From positions 1 through 33,660 of the forward strand of contig CAMOYC010000007.1 in assembly GCA_946629665.1 (NCBI GenBank): a stretch of 33,660 bases of DNA, given 5' to 3'. Position 1 is the first letter of the stretch; each line of letters opens with the position of its first letter. This document shows positions 22,435 through 33,660 of this stretch, in pieces. A program made the translations under genes and the position numbers. Origin of the DNA: an uncultured Lachnospiraceae bacterium. Its GTDB lineage: Bacteria; Bacillota; Clostridia; Lachnospirales; Lachnospiraceae. A model generated the notes under the pieces. The model was not told the origin of the DNA, did no database searches, and saw only the letters and a program-made list of their open reading frames with translations.

Positions 22435-24018
22435 ATGGGAAAATGGGGTTTCTTCAAAGGGTCCAGAGATAACTGGTTCTCCCATGAACTGTATAACTGG
22501 ATGGACAGCAGCCGGTTCCCGCAGGCGGCCCAGCTTCATGAACGCTGCAAAGCCGAGAGGATCCGGGAGGCCTTGTCATCCTTTACAGACATGTATTTAC
22601 AGACAATCGAATATTATCCGGACGGAACCTTTCAGGAAGAAGGCAAGCCTCTCCTGGACAATGTGCAGGCCTTCTATCTGGTCCGGCTGAAGGAATTTCT
22701 TTCCGGCAGGCATATTGCCGACCATAAGATCTTTCTTCCTCTTCGTTGGAACCACCGTTTTATGGGGATTGCCGGAGCCGGCACCAACATGGAAACAGAT
22801 TGGGACAAGGAGCAGACCACCAATCTGACCTCCTGGCCGATGGCTGTGCGGAACGGCTTTGCCTGTGTGGTCAGCAACGGCGCCACCGGCATGTTTGTGG
22901 ACAGCAGCTGGGGTTTTAAGGACCAGGGTCTGGACTGGGAGATGATCAACAACTGGGCTTTCACCGGCACCCACAACATGACAGTCTGCGCCAAAGCAGT
23001 GGTGGAGGCAGCCTACGGCGAGAAGATCTGTAAGAGCTATATGCATGGAACTTCCGGCGGTGGGAGGCAGATCATGTGCCAGGCCCAGCTCTATCCGGAA
23101 GACTACGACGGTCTCTGGGCGGACGGTCCGCTCTTTGATTTCTATAATATGATGTTCTCCTGCCTCTGGGCAGCGGTGGTCTATTATAATGAATCGAACC
23201 GGGTACCCCTGGAGAAGTTCATCACGGCGAATAAACTGACCAGGACTGCCAAAAGGGTCTCCATGGGCCCCTTTGACTTAAAGTCAATGGGCTGGCTGAA
23301 CTACCTGAGAGCCCTTCCCGGAACCCCGACACCCGCAGGTCCGATCACAATCTTTGACCTGCAGGTGATGCTGAAGGTGTGGAACGGACCGGTTCTCTCG
23401 GACGGCACAAGGATCAGCTACGGCTTCGGACCGGAGATCACACAGTGGCCGGTCGGCCCGAGAAAGTTCGGCTATCTGAAGAGGCATGAGGACGGAACCA
23501 TCACTGTGATCCCCTTTGCCCTGCAGTTCCTGCGCTGGCTGGTCCGCGATCCGGACTGGGATATCCGGACCTGCAGCTACAAGGAGTTTGAGAAGATCTA
23601 TCTGGATCACAAGAAGGAATTTGAAAAGTTCGCTTTTTATGATCCGGATCTGAGGCCACTGGCAAAGTGCGGCGGCAAGCTGCTGATCACCCACGGAACG
23701 GGGGATCATATTGCACCGCACCAGGTAAGTTTCGATTATTATAAAAAGACATTACAATACTTCAGCTCTGAGCAGGAACTGAATAAGACATTCCGGGTCT
23801 TCTTCCCTCCGGAGGGCGGACATGCCCTCTATGACTGGGATGGCCCGAATGTGACCAACGAATCAGGATGGAAAGCTCTGATGAACTGGGTGGAGAATGA
23901 CCAGCCACCGGAACAATTGAGGGCGGTCAACTATGATTTTTCAGAAGATAAACTGATAAAAGATACCACTGTTCCGGTATTCAACCTGTGGCAGTGGAAA
24001 AAACACTATGGGAAATAG
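22435..24018 (+). CDS. Tannase/feruloyl esterase-family alpha/beta hydrolase (no signal peptide)
   Basis: 527 aa; nucleophile motif GTSGGGRQ, LYPEDYDGLWADGP, Asp in THGTGDHIAPHQ, His in PEGGHALYDW, C-term WVENDQPPEQLRAV. Confidence 0.8.
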   Translation: MGKWGFFKGSRDNWFSHELYNWMDSSRFPQAAQLHERCKAERIREALSSFTDMYLQTIEYYPDGTFQEEGKPLLDNVQAFYLVRLKEFLSGRHIADHKIFLPLRWNHRFMGIAGAGTNMETDWDKEQTTNLTSWPMAVRNGFACVVSNGATGMFVDSSWGFKDQGLDWEMINNWAFTGTHNMTVCAKAVVEAAYGEKICKSYMHGTSGGGRQIMCQAQLYPEDYDGLWADGPLFDFYNMMFSCLWAAVVYYNESNRVPLEKFITANKLTRTAKRVSMGPFDLKSMGWLNYLRALPGTPTPAGPITIFDLQVMLKVWNGPVLSDGTRISYGFGPEITQWPVGPRKFGYLKRHEDGTITVIPFALQFLRWLVRDPDWDIRTCSYKEFEKIYLDHKKEFEKFAFYDPDLRPLAKCGGKLLITHGTGDHIAPHQVSFDYYKKTLQYFSSEQELNKTFRVFFPPEGGHALYDWDGPNVTNESGWKALMNWVENDQPPEQLRAVNYDFSEDKLIKDTTVPVFNLWQWKKHYGK

Positions 24019-24045
24019 TATCATATCTGTTGATCAGACTGATGG

Positions 24046-24075
24046 GCCCCCGATGCTTGCTAAAGCAGCGGGGGC
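24046..24075. terminator. Strong stem-loop (weak U-tract) after tannase-like gene
   Basis: GCCCCCG (24046-24052) / CGGGGGC (24069-24075) with an inner 5-bp stem; downstream T-run is poor. Confidence 0.5.
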
Positions 24076-24125
24076 TTGTCAATTACAGGACATCTGCCGC
24101 AGATGACCGGAGAGGAACGAGGAAT

Positions 24126-25418
24126 ATGGCAAAGAAGAAAAAAGCAGGTTTGTCTGCAGAAAGACAGAGACAGGATGAGGAGATCCGTTTGCTCACGGTG
24201 GAACCGGAGGAAGTGGGGATGTCTTCCACCTATCTGGACTACATTGATGAGGTGATGCAAAGATCGATCGAAGAGAAGATGATGAAGGGCATGGTAACCC
24301 TGGTTGCCCGACATGGCAGGATTGTCCAGTTCAAGGCCTACGGGCAGATGGAAGAAGGGGTACCTATGAAGAAGGATTGCATTTTCCGGCTGGCCTCCAT
24401 GTCAAAGACGATCGGGGCAGCTGCCCTGATGCAGCTCTATGACCGGGGGATCATTATGCCTTCTGATCCGGTTTTTGCTTACATTCCGGCCTTTGCCAAC
24501 CCGATGGTTGCGGAGCCGGGAGAGAACGGAGACATTGTTTTGGTGCCCGCAAAGAGGGAGCCGACAGTACATGACCTTCTCACCATGACTTCCGGTGTCA
24601 GTGCTGTCCGGGCAATGGACAGCGGACATCCCGGCCATGAATACTGTGCGGCTCTCTACAAGGAGAAAGGGATCATTGATACCATGCACGGGCTGGATAT
24701 GACCATCGCTGAGGTGGTGGACCAGGTCGCCGGATTTCCCCTGGGCTCCCACCCGGGAGAACACTGGGAGTATTCCAACCTGTCATCCATCATTACCGGC
24801 CGGATCGTGGAGATTGCTTCCGGCATGAACCTGGATTCCTATCTGAAAAAGTACATTTTTGAGCCTCTGGATATGCAGGATACCGCATTTTTCCCGGAGG
24901 AGTCGAAATGGACCAGGATCCCTGCAGTCCACGCCTGCGGCAGCATGGATAAGCTGACCGGGCTGGATGTGCCGGGAACGGATGATACCAGACTGCCCTT
25001 TTCCGATGCAAGAAAATATTTCAATATTTCCGCAGGCCTTACCGGGACCGCCTATGATTATTTTAAATTTGCCCAGATGCTTTTAAACCGCGGCATCTAC
25101 CAGGGTAAACGACTTCTGAGCCCTAATGCAGTGCGGCTGATGACGACTAATCATATGGGGGACCGGCAGGAATCCATTTACGGGCACACCTGGGGATATA
25201 TGATGGATGTGATGACCGCTTATAATACCACGTTTAATTACATGGGTCTGGGCTCCTACAGCTGGCACGGCTACTGGGGCAGCTGTTATAATGTCTGGCC
25301 GGAGAAGGATGTGGTTGCCATCTTCCTGTCCCAGGTATCCCCTGTCGGCATGTCCTGGAAGACCCAGGAACGGTTTCTGAATGTCACTGCGAATTCGGTC
25401 ATGGATGACCTTTCATAA
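24126..25418 (+). CDS. Serine hydrolase, class C beta-lactamase/esterase family
   Basis: SxxK in RLASMSKTIGAAALMQLYDRG; YSN in EHWEYSNLSS; WHGYWGS. ATG 24126 preferred over 23988, which overlaps the upstream gene. Confidence 0.92.
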   Translation: MAKKKKAGLSAERQRQDEEIRLLTVEPEEVGMSSTYLDYIDEVMQRSIEEKMMKGMVTLVARHGRIVQFKAYGQMEEGVPMKKDCIFRLASMSKTIGAAALMQLYDRGIIMPSDPVFAYIPAFANPMVAEPGENGDIVLVPAKREPTVHDLLTMTSGVSAVRAMDSGHPGHEYCAALYKEKGIIDTMHGLDMTIAEVVDQVAGFPLGSHPGEHWEYSNLSSIITGRIVEIASGMNLDSYLKKYIFEPLDMQDTAFFPEESKWTRIPAVHACGSMDKLTGLDVPGTDDTRLPFSDARKYFNISAGLTGTAYDYFKFAQMLLNRGIYQGKRLLSPNAVRLMTTNHMGDRQESIYGHTWGYMMDVMTAYNTTFNYMGLGSYSWHGYWGSCYNVWPEKDVVAIFLSQVSPVGMSWKTQERFLNVTANSVMDDLS

Positions 25419-25531: not shown

Positions 25532-26161
25532 ATGGGTGCAAAAAATATTTTGATCATCACCGGAAGTCCGAGGGCAGAAGGCAATACCAACAATCTGGTA
25601 AAAGCTTTTGCTGCCGCTGCTACAGGCGCAGGCCATACTGTAAAGTGCTTTGATGCCGTTGCTGCAGACATGCATGGCTGCCACGGAGATCAGAATTGCT
25701 TCAAGACCGGTCGCTGTGGATTAAAGGACGACGGCCTTAAGATGTATGAGCTGATGGGCTGGGCTGATGTGCTGGTTCTGGCTTCCCCTGTATACTGGAA
25801 GGGTTTTACTTCCTGGATCAAGAGAGCGATCGACCGTTTTTATGTGTTCGCTTCTCCGAAGGGCCATGAGAACTGCTCCGTGAAAGAGAGTTACCTGATC
25901 GCTGCGGCCGGCAATCCGGATGTGGCTGTTTTCGACGCGATGAAGCAGGAGTTTGACCTGGTCAACAAGCTTCTTCAGTTCCGGAATGCGGGAGAGCTCC
26001 TTGCAGCGGGACTTAAGGGACCGGAGGATTACAAAGAGCATATGGAATATATCCAGGCGGCTGCTGAGATGGGAAGCAAGGTCGGAGCGGAAGACGCGAT
26101 GTCCAAAGTAGCATTTCAGGGAGCTCACATGAGCCTGCGTGACCTCTGGAAAACCATGTAA
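25532..26161 (+). CDS. Flavodoxin-family NAD(P)H/FMN reductase-like protein
   Basis: NILIITGSPRAEGNTNNLVKAF; LVLASPVYWKGFTSWIKRAIDRFY; SD GAGGAGG. Confidence 0.9.
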   Translation: MGAKNILIITGSPRAEGNTNNLVKAFAAAATGAGHTVKCFDAVAADMHGCHGDQNCFKTGRCGLKDDGLKMYELMGWADVLVLASPVYWKGFTSWIKRAIDRFYVFASPKGHENCSVKESYLIAAAGNPDVAVFDAMKQEFDLVNKLLQFRNAGELLAAGLKGPEDYKEHMEYIQAAAEMGSKVGAEDAMSKVAFQGAHMSLRDLWKTM

Positions 26162-26186
26162 CAGATTAGGGAAGGAGAATTAAAAA

Positions 26187-26510
26187 ATGATTGGAATTTT
26201 ATACTTTTATTTACCGGGATGCAAATATTGTAAGAGAGCAGAAATCCTGATGCTGGAACTTCAGAACTCAAAACCGGAGTTCGGCGAGATCCAGGTGATC
26301 AAGATGAACGAGGCTGAGAGACCTGATATCGCAGCGAAGTTCACCCATTCCCGCGTTCCTGCTTTCTTCCTTGGCGATCGTCTTCTTTATGAGGCAGACC
26401 CCAATGAGAGCAGAGATGATATGAAAGCGATGCTTGAGAAGGTTTTCACTGCAGCTTGTGAAGTAAACAAACTGGCAGCTGAGACCATGAAGAATAAGAC
26501 CAGCTTCTAA
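26187..26510 (+). CDS. Glutaredoxin/thioredoxin-like protein (CKYC)
   Basis: MIGILYFYLPGCKYCKRAEILMLEL, cis-Pro motif SRVPAFFLGD; 107 aa. Confidence 0.85.
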   Translation: MIGILYFYLPGCKYCKRAEILMLELQNSKPEFGEIQVIKMNEAERPDIAAKFTHSRVPAFFLGDRLLYEADPNESRDDMKAMLEKVFTAACEVNKLAAETMKNKTSF

Positions 26511-26551
26511 TTTAGCCTATCATTTTTTTGATGATACAGGAGGATTGTCAT

Positions 26552-27454
26552 ATGCTTGATCTGTTGATCATCGGCAGCGGTCCTGCGGGACTTAGCGCCG
26601 GTGTCTATGCAAAGAGGGCCAACCTGAATTTCATATTGGCAGAGAAGGAGTTCCTTGGAGCCGGACAGATCATGAACTCGATCCGGGTGGACAATTATCT
26701 GGGCTTTTACGGGATCAGCGGCTATGATCTCGGCGACAAATTCCGCCTGCATGCGGAGGAACTCCGGGTTCCTTTCCTGATCGGGGAAGCCAGAGAGATC
26801 CTTCCGGTACCGGGAGGATGGCGTGTCATTTTTGACAAAGGAGACGTTCAGGAAGCCCGGACCCTGATCTACTGCGGGGGAACCCGGACAAGACACCTGG
26901 ACATCATGGGCCAGGATGCTTTTGGCAGAAAAGGTATCCACAGCTGCGTGGTATGTGACGGCCCTTATTATAAGAACAAATCTGTTGCGGTGGTCGGCGG
27001 CGGTGATACCGCGATCGACACCGCCAAATATCTCTCTGATCTTGCGAACCAGGTTTATCTGATCCACTGGATGAATGAATTCCAGGGCAATGAAACTACC
27101 CTGGATAAGTTAAAGGCTGACAGCCGGGTGGAAGTGCTTCCAAATACTTCTGTGCTGATGGCACTTGGTCAGGAGAGTCTGGAGTCACTGGTCCTGAGTA
27201 ATGGCAGGATCATCAAAGTGGATGGCTTGTTTGAGGCGATCGGTGCATTGCCTGAGACAGAGATGTTAAAAGAAATCGCAGCATTGGATGAGAGAGGTTA
27301 TATCAAAGCCGGAGAGGATTGCATTACCTCGGCACCGGGCCTGTTCGCGGCAGGAGATGTCCGGACAAAGAGGTTGCGCCAGGTATCTACTGCAGTGGCG
27401 GATGGTGCGAATGCAGTATATTCGGTCATGGAATATCTCAGACGGTTTGAGTAG
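26552..27454 (+). CDS. Thioredoxin reductase-like FAD-dependent disulfide oxidoreductase
   Basis: DLLIIGSGPAGLSAGVYAKRA; redox CVVCDGPYY; AVVGGGDTAIDTAKYL; GLFAAGDVRTKRLRQVSTAVADGANA. SD AGGAGG, ATG 26552. Confidence 0.92.
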   Translation: MLDLLIIGSGPAGLSAGVYAKRANLNFILAEKEFLGAGQIMNSIRVDNYLGFYGISGYDLGDKFRLHAEELRVPFLIGEAREILPVPGGWRVIFDKGDVQEARTLIYCGGTRTRHLDIMGQDAFGRKGIHSCVVCDGPYYKNKSVAVVGGGDTAIDTAKYLSDLANQVYLIHWMNEFQGNETTLDKLKADSRVEVLPNTSVLMALGQESLESLVLSNGRIIKVDGLFEAIGALPETEMLKEIAALDERGYIKAGEDCITSAPGLFAAGDVRTKRLRQVSTAVADGANAVYSVMEYLRRFE

Positions 27455-27468
27455 TTTAATCGTATACG

Positions 27469-27506
27469 ACAGCCCTTCTTTTCTAAGATGAAAAGAGGGG
27501 CTGTTT
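27469..27506 (+). terminator. Intrinsic terminator / attenuator-like stem-loop
   Basis: 15-bp stem (one G-U) ACAGCCCTTCTTTTC (27469-27483) / GAAAAGAGGGGCTGT (27490-27504) followed by a short T-run. Confidence 0.75.
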
Positions 27507-27538: not shown

Positions 27539-28720
27539 ATGAGAAAAAGACTTGCGAAGAATACAGACAGAAAAAAATGGATGAAAGCAGCCACATTGCT
27601 GATGGCAGGCATGATGGCTTTCGGGCTCGCCGGATGTTCCGCGGGTTCCGGTCAGATGGAATCCACGGAATCCAACCTGGATCTTTCAGAGAACACCGGA
27701 GAAAACAAGGTGCATGAAGATTTCAGTCTGAATGTGAATTCCAACCGTGCCAGCGATTATGCCAAAAATGAAGTGCCTCTTCCGATTACCGGGATCGGTC
27801 GCGGCATCAGCACGGATGTGAAAGCGAAGGATAAGTACAAGATTGTTGTTATGACCCGGAATTCCACCAATCCTTACATGATCGGCATGTGGGACGGCGG
27901 AGCCCAAGCCGGCAAAGACATGGGCGTTGAGGTGCAGACTCTGGCTCCGTCTGAGCAGGATTCCATCAATGAGCAGGTTACGATCATGGAATCCCTGCTG
28001 GATCAGGGAGTGGATGGGTTTGTGATCCATCCTTCCGATTCCAAAGGAATCCAGCCGGTGGTGGACGCCGCCAACGAGAAGGGCATTCCTGTGGTTGCGA
28101 TCGGAACGGCACCTGACACCGGCGCCTTCATGCGGTCCGGCGTCGACTACTATGAGACCGGTTACCTTGTAACCAAAGAACTCTGTGAGGCAGCAGGCGG
28201 AAAGGGCAAGGCCATCATCCTGGAAGGTCCGGCAGGGGTACAGAATATGGAAGAGCGAAAAGCCGGCATTGAAGATGCGATCGCAGAATATCCCGATGTG
28301 GAGATCGTGGCATCCCAGACTGCCAACTGCAAGAGAAAAGAGGGAATGGATGTCATGGAGAATCTCCTGGAGGGTGACGGTGTTCAGGACGAGCTTTCCA
28401 TCGTAGTTTGCTGTAATGATGAGATGGCGATCGGAGCGATCCAGGCCCTTAAGGCCAGAAAGATGGATAATGTTTTCGTTGGTGGCTTTGACGCCTCCAA
28501 GGATGCTTCCCAGGCTGTCAAGGACGGAGACCTCTACGTGACCTACAATACAGATCCTTATGGATCCACCTACCTGGCATGCACCTACCTTGTGAAGTAT
28601 CTGAATGATAAGACGCTGCCGGAAGAGTATTTTATTCCTTTCCCGTCAGAAAGAAATGATCCGCTTATCACAAAAGAAAATGTCCAGGATTATATCGATA
28701 ATTACAGATGGTTTAAATAG
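27539..28720 (+). CDS. ABC sugar transporter substrate-binding lipoprotein (periplasmic-binding-protein type 1)
   Basis: MRKRLAKN...LMAGMMAFGLAGCSAG lipobox; YKIVVMTRNSTNPYMIGMWDGG; VDGFVIHPSDSKGIQPVVDAA. True start likely 27539 (SD GAAAGGAGAG), not 27488. Confidence 0.92.
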   Translation: MRKRLAKNTDRKKWMKAATLLMAGMMAFGLAGCSAGSGQMESTESNLDLSENTGENKVHEDFSLNVNSNRASDYAKNEVPLPITGIGRGISTDVKAKDKYKIVVMTRNSTNPYMIGMWDGGAQAGKDMGVEVQTLAPSEQDSINEQVTIMESLLDQGVDGFVIHPSDSKGIQPVVDAANEKGIPVVAIGTAPDTGAFMRSGVDYYETGYLVTKELCEAAGGKGKAIILEGPAGVQNMEERKAGIEDAIAEYPDVEIVASQTANCKRKEGMDVMENLLEGDGVQDELSIVVCCNDEMAIGAIQALKARKMDNVFVGGFDASKDASQAVKDGDLYVTYNTDPYGSTYLACTYLVKYLNDKTLPEEYFIPFPSERNDPLITKENVQDYIDNYRWFK

Positions 28721-28752
28721 GCCGTTAAGGACCACAGGTTAAACAGATCATT

Positions 28753-30276
28753 ATGACGACAAATAAAAGACCGCTTCTAAGAGCGGAAAATATAAGCAAA
28801 TCATTCCCCGGGGTGAAAGCTCTGTCCCATGTGGACCTGGACCTTTATCCCGGGGAGGTCCATATCCTGGCCGGGGAAAACGGCGCAGGAAAAAGTACCC
28901 TGATCAAGTGTATTCTGGGGGCTTATCAGCCGGATGAGGGCAAGCTGTTTCTGGAAGACAGTGAGATCCGGCTGCGTACTCCCAAGGAAGGGATTGAGCA
29001 CGGGATCGCTGCAGTCTACCAGGAACTGACCATGATCCCCTGGCTGGATGGCGCCCAGAATATTTTTTTCGGCAGGGAGCCAAAGATTGCCGGAACAACG
29101 ATCATAAACCGTAAGAAAATGTCCTGCCAGGCGAAAAGTCTGCTGGATGAACTTGGCTGTCAGGAGATCGACCTGACTCTTCCCGTAAAGAAGCTGGGGA
29201 TAGCGGAACAGCAGATGATCGAGATTGCCAAGGCAATCTCTATGAACCCCAAAGTAATCATATTTGACGAACCGACCGCATCCCTTTCGGATCGTGAGGT
29301 GGACAGGCTGTTCGCTCAGATAGAGATCCTCAAAAAGAAAGGTCTGGCGATCGTTTATATATCCCACCGCATGAAAGAACTGCATGCAGTCGGAGATCGG
29401 ATCACCGTTCTGCGGGACGGGAAAAAGATAGGAACCTACCCGGAGAGGGAGCTATCCGATGATGAGCTGGTCAGCCTGATGATCGGAGGCAACATTGAGG
29501 AAGTTTATAAAAAGACTTCTGTTCCGGGCCGGGAAACCGCTTTGGAAATCAGGGAACTCAGCGACCGGAAGGGTAAAGTGCACGAATGCAGTCTGCAGGT
29601 CAGAAAGGGCGAGATCGTCGGCCTGGCCGGGCTGGTAGGAGCGGGAAGGACAGAGCTTTCCCGTCTCATTTTCGGGATTGACAAGAGTTCCTGTGGCCAG
29701 GTCCTGCTCCACGGGGAAGATGTTACCGGCAAAAGTCCAGAATACCTGGTGGACCATGGGCTGGGCCTGCTTCCGGAAGACCGGAAAGGGCTGGGGCTGG
29801 CTCTTCGGGCCCCCATCTCCTGGAATGTGGTTGCTTCCGGCCTCCGGCAGGTTTTTCCACATTTTTTTATGAACGAAAAGAAAAATGACTCCGTGGCGGC
29901 CGAATATATCCGGATGCTGGAGGTTGCCACGCCGGATGTCCAAAGAAATGTCGGGCAGCTTTCCGGAGGCAATCAGCAAAAGGTCGTCGTTGCCAAGTGG
30001 CTTTGCGCGAATACGGATGTGATCCTCTTTGATGAGCCCACCCGGGGAATCGATGTCGGAGCCAAGGCAGAGATCTACGTCCTGATGAACAAAATGGCTT
30101 CCGAGGGAAAAGCCATCTTGATGATATCTTCGGAACTGTCTGAAATCATGGGGATGAGCGATAAGATCTACGTGATGCGGGAAGGACGGATCGTCGGCTC
30201 CCTAGAACGGGAGAACTTTTCAGAAGAGGAGATTGGCCGGATGATGCTTCTCTCCGGGGAAGGAGAGGGAGCATGA
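28753..30276 (+). CDS. Ribose-type ABC transporter ATP-binding protein (two ATPase domains)
   Basis: 507 aa; Walker A GENGAGKSTLIK; degenerate second site GLVGAGRTEL; LSGGNQQKVVVAKWL; DEPTRGIDVGAKAEIY. Confidence 0.95.
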   Translation: MTTNKRPLLRAENISKSFPGVKALSHVDLDLYPGEVHILAGENGAGKSTLIKCILGAYQPDEGKLFLEDSEIRLRTPKEGIEHGIAAVYQELTMIPWLDGAQNIFFGREPKIAGTTIINRKKMSCQAKSLLDELGCQEIDLTLPVKKLGIAEQQMIEIAKAISMNPKVIIFDEPTASLSDREVDRLFAQIEILKKKGLAIVYISHRMKELHAVGDRITVLRDGKKIGTYPERELSDDELVSLMIGGNIEEVYKKTSVPGRETALEIRELSDRKGKVHECSLQVRKGEIVGLAGLVGAGRTELSRLIFGIDKSSCGQVLLHGEDVTGKSPEYLVDHGLGLLPEDRKGLGLALRAPISWNVVASGLRQVFPHFFMNEKKNDSVAAEYIRMLEVATPDVQRNVGQLSGGNQQKVVVAKWLCANTDVILFDEPTRGIDVGAKAEIYVLMNKMASEGKAILMISSELSEIMGMSDKIYVMREGRIVGSLERENFSEEEIGRMMLLSGEGEGA

Positions 30277-31256
30277 GAAAAAAAGTGTATGATAATAAAG
30301 GGATAAGATCCAAGGGCTTCCGACTGCTGACTTTTGCACCTCCGGCCCTTTATATGATGATCATCCTGATGATCCTGTTCAGCTTTTTTGCTGACCATTA
30401 TTTTGCCTGGTCCAACCTCAGTGTGATCCTTCGCCAGGCTGCTCCCCTGATGATGCTTGCCTGCGGGCAGACACTGATCATTCTCATGCAGGGGACAGAT
30501 CTTTCCCTGGGATCTATCGTTTCTCTCACCTCAGTGTTATGGATCTGGCTGTTAAATCTGGGATTTGGCATGCCTGTCTCTATTCTGCTTGTCATACTGG
30601 CCGGGGCTCTTTGCGGTCTGCTGAATGGTTTGATCGTGGGAAAAGGTCTTCTTCCGGTCTTTATCGTGACCCTGGGAACACAGAATATCTTTAAATCAGC
30701 AGCTTTGCTGCTCTGTGGCAGCCAGACGATCTACTATCGTCACGATCTGTTCCGCATGGTTGCCAAGGAGGGCCTGTCAGGGATCAGCTACTCCGTTATG
30801 ATCTCTTTTCTGATGGTGGGGATCACCTGGTTCCTTCTGAACCAAACATCCTTTGGCATGAAGATCCGGGGGATCGGCGGCAATCCGGAGGCATTGACGC
30901 TGGCCGGTGTCAGTATCAGCAGGACAACTATTATGGGTTTTATCTATGCAGGTATCATGGCTGCAGTCGGAGGCATGCTTCTCTGCTGCAGGATCGAGTC
31001 CGGAAACCCTAATTCGGGCAACGGCCTGGAGTTTTCTGCGGTAGCGGCGGTCCTGTTGGGCGGCACTTCCATGAGGGAAGGCCGGGGAGGTGTGGGAGGA
31101 ACCATCTTCGGTGTACTCATGCTTCAGGTGTTAAGAAGCGGACTCACTCAGGTCGGTGTATCCTCCATCTACCAGAACGCGATCATCGGTATCGTGATAC
31201 TGACGGCGATCATCCTGGATGAGATCATCCGCAGAAGAGGAGGTGAAGAGGATTGA
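30273..31256 (+). CDS. ABC transporter permease (RbsC-like) 1
   Basis: Hydrophobic; LACGQTLIILMQGTDLSLGSIVSLTS; AVAAVLLGGTSMREGRGGVGGTIFG. ATGA overlap with ATPase. Confidence 0.94.
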   Translation: MRKKVYDNKGIRSKGFRLLTFAPPALYMMIILMILFSFFADHYFAWSNLSVILRQAAPLMMLACGQTLIILMQGTDLSLGSIVSLTSVLWIWLLNLGFGMPVSILLVILAGALCGLLNGLIVGKGLLPVFIVTLGTQNIFKSAALLLCGSQTIYYRHDLFRMVAKEGLSGISYSVMISFLMVGITWFLLNQTSFGMKIRGIGGNPEALTLAGVSISRTTIMGFIYAGIMAAVGGMLLCCRIESGNPNSGNGLEFSAVAAVLLGGTSMREGRGGVGGTIFGVLMLQVLRSGLTQVGVSSIYQNAIIGIVILTAIILDEIIRRRGGEED

Positions 31257-32248
31257 AGAAGAATACCATGCTTCATGACCTGGTAAAAGGCAGATACTTT
31301 TTCTCCGTGATGAGTCTGTTTGTTCTCATTGGGATTTCCTGCCTGATGAGTCCCTCCTTTCTGTCCCTGAGTAATTTTATAACCATCCTGCGGCAGGCCA
31401 GCATCCTGCTGATCCTCAGCATGGGCCTCACCGCAGTTGTATTAACCGGCAACATTGACCTGTCAGTGGGGTCCTCTGCGGCTCTTTGCGGATGTGTTTG
31501 TGCCCAGATGCTGGTGGCAGGATTTCCGGTGATATTGTGTATGGGCGCCAGCCTCCTGATCGGGCTGACCGTCGGTTTTATCAACGGGCTGCTGGTGGGG
31601 ATCCTGAAATTACCATCCTTTATTGCCACCTACGGGATGAACATGGTAGCCTCCGGGCTGGCTATGATCGTCATGAACGGGGGTGTGATCTACGGCTTGC
31701 CCACAAACTTTACCACCCTTGGCGTCGGTTATCTGGGTCCCTTGCCGGTTCCGGTGATCCTGGCTGCTATCCTGGTGGTCTGCATGATGATACTTCTGCA
31801 GAAGACAGTGTTTGGCCGCAATGTCTACATGATCGGATACAATGCAAATGCGGCAGATTATTCCGGGGTCAATTCCCTGAGAACGTTGCTGGGTGCCTAT
31901 CTCTTGTGCGGAATGACCGGGGCGATCGGCGGAATCGTTATGACCGCCCGGCTGAATGCGGCAGATTTCGGGATGACCGAGGCCTATGGATTGCAGATCG
32001 TGGCTGCCGTCGTTGTGGGAGGCACCTCCCTGCTCGGCGGGGAAGGCGGTGTGCTGGGAACAGTGATCGGAGCCATAATCCTCACTATCATCGTGAACAT
32101 CATGAACATCATGGGAGTAAACTCCAACTGGCAGGGAATGGTCCATGGAATCGTTATTTTGTTCGTAGTCTGGCTGGATGTGTTTGCCAGGAGAGTGGGA
32201 GCCGGGAGAGCTCTGAGAAAACAGAGAGAATCGGTTAAAAGAGCATAG
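31253..32248 (+). CDS. ABC transporter permease (RbsC-like) 2
   Basis: LTAVVLTGNIDLSVGSSAALCG; AAVVVGGTSLLGGEGGVLGTVIGA. Likely TTG start overlapping upstream stop (TTGA), SD AGGAGG at 31238. Confidence 0.93.
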   Translation: MKKNTMLHDLVKGRYFFSVMSLFVLIGISCLMSPSFLSLSNFITILRQASILLILSMGLTAVVLTGNIDLSVGSSAALCGCVCAQMLVAGFPVILCMGASLLIGLTVGFINGLLVGILKLPSFIATYGMNMVASGLAMIVMNGGVIYGLPTNFTTLGVGYLGPLPVPVILAAILVVCMMILLQKTVFGRNVYMIGYNANAADYSGVNSLRTLLGAYLLCGMTGAIGGIVMTARLNAADFGMTEAYGLQIVAAVVVGGTSLLGGEGGVLGTVIGAIILTIIVNIMNIMGVNSNWQGMVHGIVILFVVWLDVFARRVGAGRALRKQRESVKRA

Positions 32249-33009: not shown

Positions 33010-33155
33010 CAAAATGCCACTTTTCCTTCATGTATAATCTTTATTAGATGAAAACTCAGGTATTAGGTTGATTTATGGGTTATGGGAATTTGAGTGATCA
33101 TCTCAACAATTTATTGACAGGCCATAAGGCCGAAAAAGTAAGGAGGAAAATTGTA

Positions 33156-33660
33156 ATGATTGCAAAAGGATTTACAGAGCCAACCGCACGTATCAAATCT
33201 TTAAAGGCAGAAGTTGTTAATGCTGTTCCGGAAGTTGAGCCGTACAGAGCCGTCCTGATTACAGAGTCTTATAAAGAGACAGAGGGAATGCCAGCGGTTA
33301 TGAGAAGAGCAAAAGCTAATGAGAAGATCTTCAACAATCTTCCTGTTGTTATTCGTGACAACGAGCTTATCGTTGGTGCTCTTTCCGTAAAGCCTCGTTC
33401 CACAAACCTTTGCCCGGAGTTCTCTTATGACTGGGTAGAGAAAGAGTTCAAGACAATGGCTACACGTATGTGTGACCCGTTCGTAATCACAGAAGAAACA
33501 GCTGATATCCTTCACGAAGTATTCAAGTACTGGAAAGGTAAAACAACAAGCGAGTTAGCTACTTCCTACATGAGCCAGGAAGCACTTGACTGCCAGGCTG
33601 GCGGTGTTTTCACAGTAGGTAACTACTACTTTGGTGGAATCGGACATGTTTGTGTAGACT
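33156..33660 (+). CDS. Glycyl radical enzyme, N-terminal part (glycerol/1,2-propanediol dehydratase clade), truncated by window edge
   Basis: MIAKGFTEPTARIKSLKAEVVNAVPEVEPYRAVLITESYKETEGMPAVMRRAKANEKIF...RDNELIVGALSVKPRSTN...FTVGNYYFGGIGHVCVD; SD AGGAGG. Not in ORF track because no stop is inside the window. Confidence 0.88.
   Translation, partial: MIAKGFTEPTARIKSLKAEVVNAVPEVEPYRAVLITESYKETEGMPAVMRRAKANEKIFNNLPVVIRDNELIVGALSVKPRSTNLCPEFSYDWVEKEFKTMATRMCDPFVITEETADILHEVFKYWKGKTTSELATSYMSQEALDCQAGGVFTVGNYYFGGIGHVCVD

Follow-up and report, generated by a model that had tools for sequence, protein, structure and literature searches.

A thioredoxin reductase-like flavoprotein from an uncultured Lachnospiraceae bacterium (TRXR) nests within the NTRs, but all three arginines of the 2'-phosphate motif HRRxxxR have been replaced, and its gene lies just downstream of that of a small CxxC redoxin (GRX). 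We propose that this NTR-lineage enzyme takes NADH and passes electrons to the adjacent GRX; from sequence comparison, we give the whole of this mechanism, as far as GRX, a probability of about 0.6. Having lost the 2'-phosphate pocket, TRXR would accept hydride from NADH, and two electrons would then travel from NADH through FAD and CVVC to the C[KQ]YC centre of GRX. GRX would in turn reduce disulfides, or a reductive enzyme, near an ester-hydrolysing and sugar-importing module, the final acceptor being the least certain element of the scheme.

The gene cluster and its surroundings

The window, which is the whole of contig C7 of the source genome (G000; 33,660 nucleotides), carries three adjacent plus-strand genes that encode a flavodoxin-fold protein (FLD), GRX and TRXR (Table 1). 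As the initial annotation had described, the gaps between them are short (25 bp for FLD-GRX, 41 bp for GRX-TRXR), and a ribosome-binding site precedes each gene. The true start of TRXR is the ATG at 26552, with AGGAGG approximately 8 bp upstream, while the TTG at 26528 listed for this gene is only a mechanical ORF start. The window also holds, at 33075-33660, part of a second glycyl radical enzyme gene, which is cut off where the contig ends.

Table 1. Positions of the genes, motifs and neighbouring elements in the window
Feature	Position	Strand	Description	Evidence
FLD	25532-26161	+	flavodoxin-fold FMN_red/Flavodoxin_2 protein, 209 aa, FMN loop GSPRAEGNT	ORF, Pfam, alignment
GRX	26187-26510	+	thioredoxin-fold redoxin, 107 aa	ORF, Pfam, structure profile match
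GRX CKYC	26220-26231	+	cis-Pro segment of GRX is RVPA	
TRXR	26552-27454	+	NTR-derived thioredoxin reductase-like flavoprotein, 300 aa	TIGR01292, AlphaFold model
TRXR CVVC	26945-26956	+	redox-active disulfide, residues 132-135	
TRXR GGGDTA	26996-27013	+	dinucleotide-binding motif of NAD(P)H domain, intact, residues 149-154	
TRXR HWMNEFQGNE	27065-27094	+	in place of HRRxxxR, residues 172-181	
Terminator-like element	27469-27504	+	strong hairpin, then UUUU	z -5.12
Context: hydrolases	22435-25418	+	tannase/feruloyl-esterase-like and beta-lactamase-fold	Pfam PF07519, PF00144
Context: importer	27539-32248	+	ribose-type ABC importer: SBP, ATPase, two permeases	

Because terminator-like hairpins are located 3' of TRXR both here and in a second genome of the genus (G303; hairpin and U-rich tail at the matching spot, z -4.91), the three genes probably form a unit of their own that ends upstream of the importer operon, and a single transcription unit with the importer is thought unlikely. 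The hairpin in the window was absent from a consensus terminator scan owing to its short T-run, and in G318 no terminator-like hairpin was seen 3' of TRXR. Between 27469 and 27520, a further hairpin (GGCTGTTTTCGGTAAAACAGCC) ahead of the SBP gene overlaps the terminator-like one; the two exclude each other and could be an attenuator.

When the 24 congeneric genomes were compared, the stable module of the genus proved to be a tannase-like gene and a beta-lactamase-fold hydrolase, sometimes FLD, and then a ribose-type SBP-ATPase-permease-permease set; SBP is present in 12 of the 24, and the combination of esterase pair and ribose-type importer has been conserved across about half of the genus. 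Into this module, TRXR and GRX are inserted as accessory genes. The FLD-GRX-TRXR trio as a whole turned up in no genome but this one: FLD has relatives in 16/24 genomes, most of which lack TRXR and GRX, and FLD lies, with no TRXR alongside, between the hydrolase and SBP genes in G315, G318 and G319. Thus, FLD accompanies the tannase/beta-lactamase/SBP module, and the conserved trio, which the initial annotation itself had made a test of its proposal, does not hold as far as FLD is concerned. Nor is FLD the classical electron-carrier flavodoxin that had been supposed. The Pfam models FMN_red (65.9 bits) and Flavodoxin_2 (56.3 bits) prevail over that of classical flavodoxins, and the FMN loop follows the GSPRxxGNT pattern of NADPH-dependent FMN reductases, indicating an FMN-reductase-type protein.

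The substrate of the importer and esterases is perhaps an acylated or galloylated sugar. Inspection of the N-termini of the two hydrolases revealed no evident signal peptide, which fits a route in which an esterified sugar would be imported and then hydrolysed inside the cell. A second tannase-like gene is located on contig C13. It is doubtful that the role of TRXR and GRX is dedicated to this pathway.

Probable pairing of the reductase with a CxxC redoxin

GRX carries a marginal Pfam Glutaredoxin match (24.0 bits versus a cut-off of 22.9), and it stays below the cut-off with every NCBIfam Grx model. C12, C15 and P58 are invariant, and both the CxxC and the cis-Pro of glutaredoxins are present. 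The family profile matches protein disulfide oxidoreductase (PDO), thioredoxin and glutaredoxin structures in the PDB, and an AlphaFold model calculated from the single sequence was poor (pLDDT 69).

Homologs of GRX (E<1e-5) were identified in five of the 24 congeneric genomes, exactly the five that hold the TRXR clade (Fisher p 2e-5, kinship ignored); since the 24 genomes represent one genus, this co-occurrence may partly reflect common descent, and none of the five MAGs that carry both genes is complete (70–88%). The two genes adjoin in G000, G303 and G319; in G318 a single gene cluster has one of them at each end, and in G313 they are on different contigs. TRXR-associated GRX proteins always display C[KQ]YC, and CPYC or CPHC is found in those unlinked relatives from other genera that could be aligned. 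A wider scan of genome contigs for TrxRs yielded only canonical HRRxxxR enzymes, none with a GRX neighbour. The tie between the reductase and the CKYC protein that had been suggested from the window is thus borne out by shared genomes and three adjacent pairs, and these patterns make GRX a likely partner of TRXR.

We also considered that the two proteins could be mere passengers of the importer locus, with TRXR reducing a general thioredoxin or a low-molecular disulfide. The variable order of GRX and TRXR (G318, G313) and the two WCGPC thioredoxins of the source genome (C76, C42) are compatible with such an arrangement, which is nevertheless improbable given that TRXR and GRX co-occur exactly even where they are unlinked, and that the GRX subgroup with the distinctive CxxC is confined to the same five genomes.

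Nucleotide site and lineage of the reductase

TRXR was aligned with E. coli TrxB, with AhpF and with TrxRs from its own family and genus. Each of Arg173, Arg174 and Arg178 is found in all 21 NADPH-type (HRR-type) relatives compared, which carry HRRxxxR, whereas TRXR has W, M and Q at these positions, within HWMNEFQ. A specialised reductase without the NADPH signature, with this segment in place of an HRRxxFRA-like one, had been proposed at the outset, and the alignment agrees on both points. The loss does not reflect general decay, since TRXR keeps 66 of the 80 columns that are invariant in nine relatives and departs at only 14, the three arginines among them. The second Rossmann motif, GGGDTA, is retained. 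The AlphaFold model (pLDDT 83.8) puts the altered residues directly after the second Rossmann beta-2 strand (E167-171), and residues that follow this strand are the site that selects NADH or NADPH in such folds.

The FAD domain, CxxC and GxGxxA Rossmann motif of NTRs are all present in TRXR, whereas the HRRxxxR 2'-phosphate motif is not. TIGR01292 (TRX_reduct) gives 270.4 bits, well above noise and below the curated NCBIfam cut-off of 343, and the best PDB matches of the model in a fold search are NADPH-TrxRs and AhpF. The CVVC centre, which had been noted as a departure from the usual CATC type, is indeed there, but it is uninformative on the electron donor because it is normal in the subfamily, including in paralog C24, which keeps two of the three arginines.

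Trees place TRXR inside the NTRs of Lachnospiraceae and Oscillospiraceae and away from FFTRs. Eight sequences, drawn from five genomes of a single genus, make up the TRXR clade (100% bootstrap, SH-aLRT 94–99), and Arg173 is gone in all eight. Copies adjacent to ribD (G000 C24, G303 C76) read HWRxDFR, with two arginines retained (HWRKDFR in C24). The importer-adjacent copies form a supported subclade (95–98 bootstrap) with HWMNEFQ, HWMDQFQ, HWLDEFQ and ITIEDHFR. Of the four distinct copies linked to the importer, three have lost all three arginines at once. This series is what stepwise arginine loss inside the NTR lineage would look like. Position 174 is acidic in two close relatives within the clade (E in G318_C3, D in G318_C32); an acid at a Rossmann position such as this one is a classical NADH-type signature.

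Since only the 2'-phosphate arginines are gone, while GGGDTA and the NTR fold are kept, we consider with reasonable confidence that the donor would be NADH, rather than NADPH or ferredoxin. The TRXR of the window has Met at position 174 and not an acid, and dual use of NADH and NADPH is for this reason possible. If the motif change were simply drift, TRXR could still employ NADPH, or both nucleotides, via other contacts. Indeed, HRRxxxR can be missing from a TrxR whose structure is ordinary (7jyp, from Thermosipho, with VQNLPYLTAA as the aligned segment), and the two arginines remaining in paralog C24 point the same way. Drift appears unlikely, however, when the few invariant columns that have departed include all three 2'-phosphate arginines, when these disappear together in most importer-linked copies, and when E or D takes the place of one of them in two relatives.

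A TRXR of FFTR/DTR type with FLD as its electron donor, suggested by the missing HRRxxxR and by the position of FLD directly upstream in the same unit, is highly improbable: FFTRs lose both NAD(P)H motifs (PMC10880999) whereas TRXR keeps GGGDTA and groups with NTRs, no FFTR or DTR structure appeared in the top 50 fold matches of the model, FLD is of the FMN-reductase type with relatives mostly in genomes without TRXR, and the genuine ferredoxin-type FFTR of this genome is a separate gene on contig C75, only 26–33% identical to the TRXR clade. This C75 protein has IIGTSPREE where NTRs have GGGxxA, and matches the Clostridium acetobutylicum FFTR 6gnc with an E of 2e-101. Among the donors put forward in the initial annotation, NADH alone fits, and neither ferredoxin nor flavodoxin is supported.

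Other reductases of the source genome were recorded as well. One (L003; G000:C1:42923-43831) carries CAVC and LQDLDHFTGE, has no HRRxxxR, and directly follows NrdD, an anaerobic ribonucleotide reductase with a fused C-terminal CPNC thioredoxin-like domain; its clade (100/100) also occurs in G304 (L136) and G315, and it may feed class III RNR electrons from a non-NADPH donor. The FFTR-type TrxR on C75 (L004) has as neighbours a MarR regulator and a glutathione-peroxidase-like protein. The G000 assembly, which is 87.5% complete, yielded no HRRxxxR TrxR at all.

Comparison with known systems

TRXR has its fold, FAD domain, CxxC, GGGxxA and tree nesting in common with canonical NTRs (E. coli TrxB and the HRRxxxR TrxRs of Lachnospiraceae), and differs from them by the absent 2'-phosphate arginines, by CVVC/CAVC, and by its putative dedicated redoxin. 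The C. acetobutylicum FFTR (6gna-6gnd) likewise belongs to the TrxR family and is devoid of HRRxxxR but, unlike TRXR, has also lost GGGxxA. The HRRxxxR motif is equally missing from the Thermoplasma acidophilum TrxR (3cty), which is described as NADH-using and was once called pyridine-independent (PMC6262447); its lineage and partner differ from those of TRXR. In genome surveys, a TrxB in which HRRxxxR (with GxGxxA) is missing is classed as non-NTR and probably ferredoxin-dependent (PMC10880999). The TRXR subfamily, located inside the NTR tree with an intact nucleotide domain, could thus be miscounted as non-NTR.

As in the Cp34/Cp9(/Cp20) system of Clostridium pasteurianum (Reynolds 2002, described in PMC3720550), a TrxR-like flavoprotein here adjoins a small CxxC redoxin. 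The TrxR encoded in the TrxR-Cp9-Prx operon of C. pasteurianum is described as NADH-dependent (PMC3720550), and NADH is the probable donor for TRXR. The C. pasteurianum system includes a linked peroxiredoxin, whereas the TRXR/GRX locus does not: the genome has three AhpC/TSA-family matches, none of them on this contig. GRX is not a member of the Cp9 family. The Cp9/YruB model (TIGR02196) did not list it even at E 10, and Cp9/YruB redoxins measure 75–80 aa and carry CP[YW]C, as opposed to 107 aa and CKYC.

Cp9/YruB redoxins (TIGR02196) were detected in 91 of 391 genomes of the class and in none of the sampled genomes of the family to which this bacterium belongs. About half of the 30 Cp9 loci examined have an adjacent TrxR, with a TrxR-redoxin spacing of a few bases in L150 and L174; the tree was built with these Cp9-adjacent TrxRs, and the likeness of their loci to Cp34 was deduced from gene order. 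TrxRs without the full HRRxxxR next to a CxxC redoxin are found both here and in several Cp9-linked loci, where the broken motifs include HQFDHFQGN (L174), HQFDNLQAE (L177) and IRRHDYFN (L150), and Q178, G179 and N180 are common to the L174 reductase and TRXR. L157 also figures among the Cp9-redoxin-linked TrxRs of other Clostridia with diverse broken NADPH motifs, and IRRYDYFK occurs as well. Other Cp9-adjacent TrxRs retain HRR (L163, L166, L171) or are FFTR-like (L149, L167-L169, L172).

A broad scheme, in which one Lachnospiraceae genus would have reinvented the TrxR/redoxin pair, switched it to NADH and turned it into a private disulfide-reducing line for a sugar-ester uptake/esterase module, convergent with Cp34/Cp9, is tentative and in its entirety rather unlikely. 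Since the Cp9-adjacent TrxRs sit in well supported clades separate from TRXR, TrxR-redoxin pairs of this kind appear to have had more than one origin, with comparable residue changes; as GRX in addition fails the Cp9 (YruB) model, the relation to Cp34/Cp9 looks like convergence. TRXR is a second, apparently independent redoxin-paired reductase to lose the same arginines, which renders the donor switch testable by mutation. Rather than a new electron source, the TRXR/GRX pair appears to be a pairing familiar from Clostridium that was reinvented locally.
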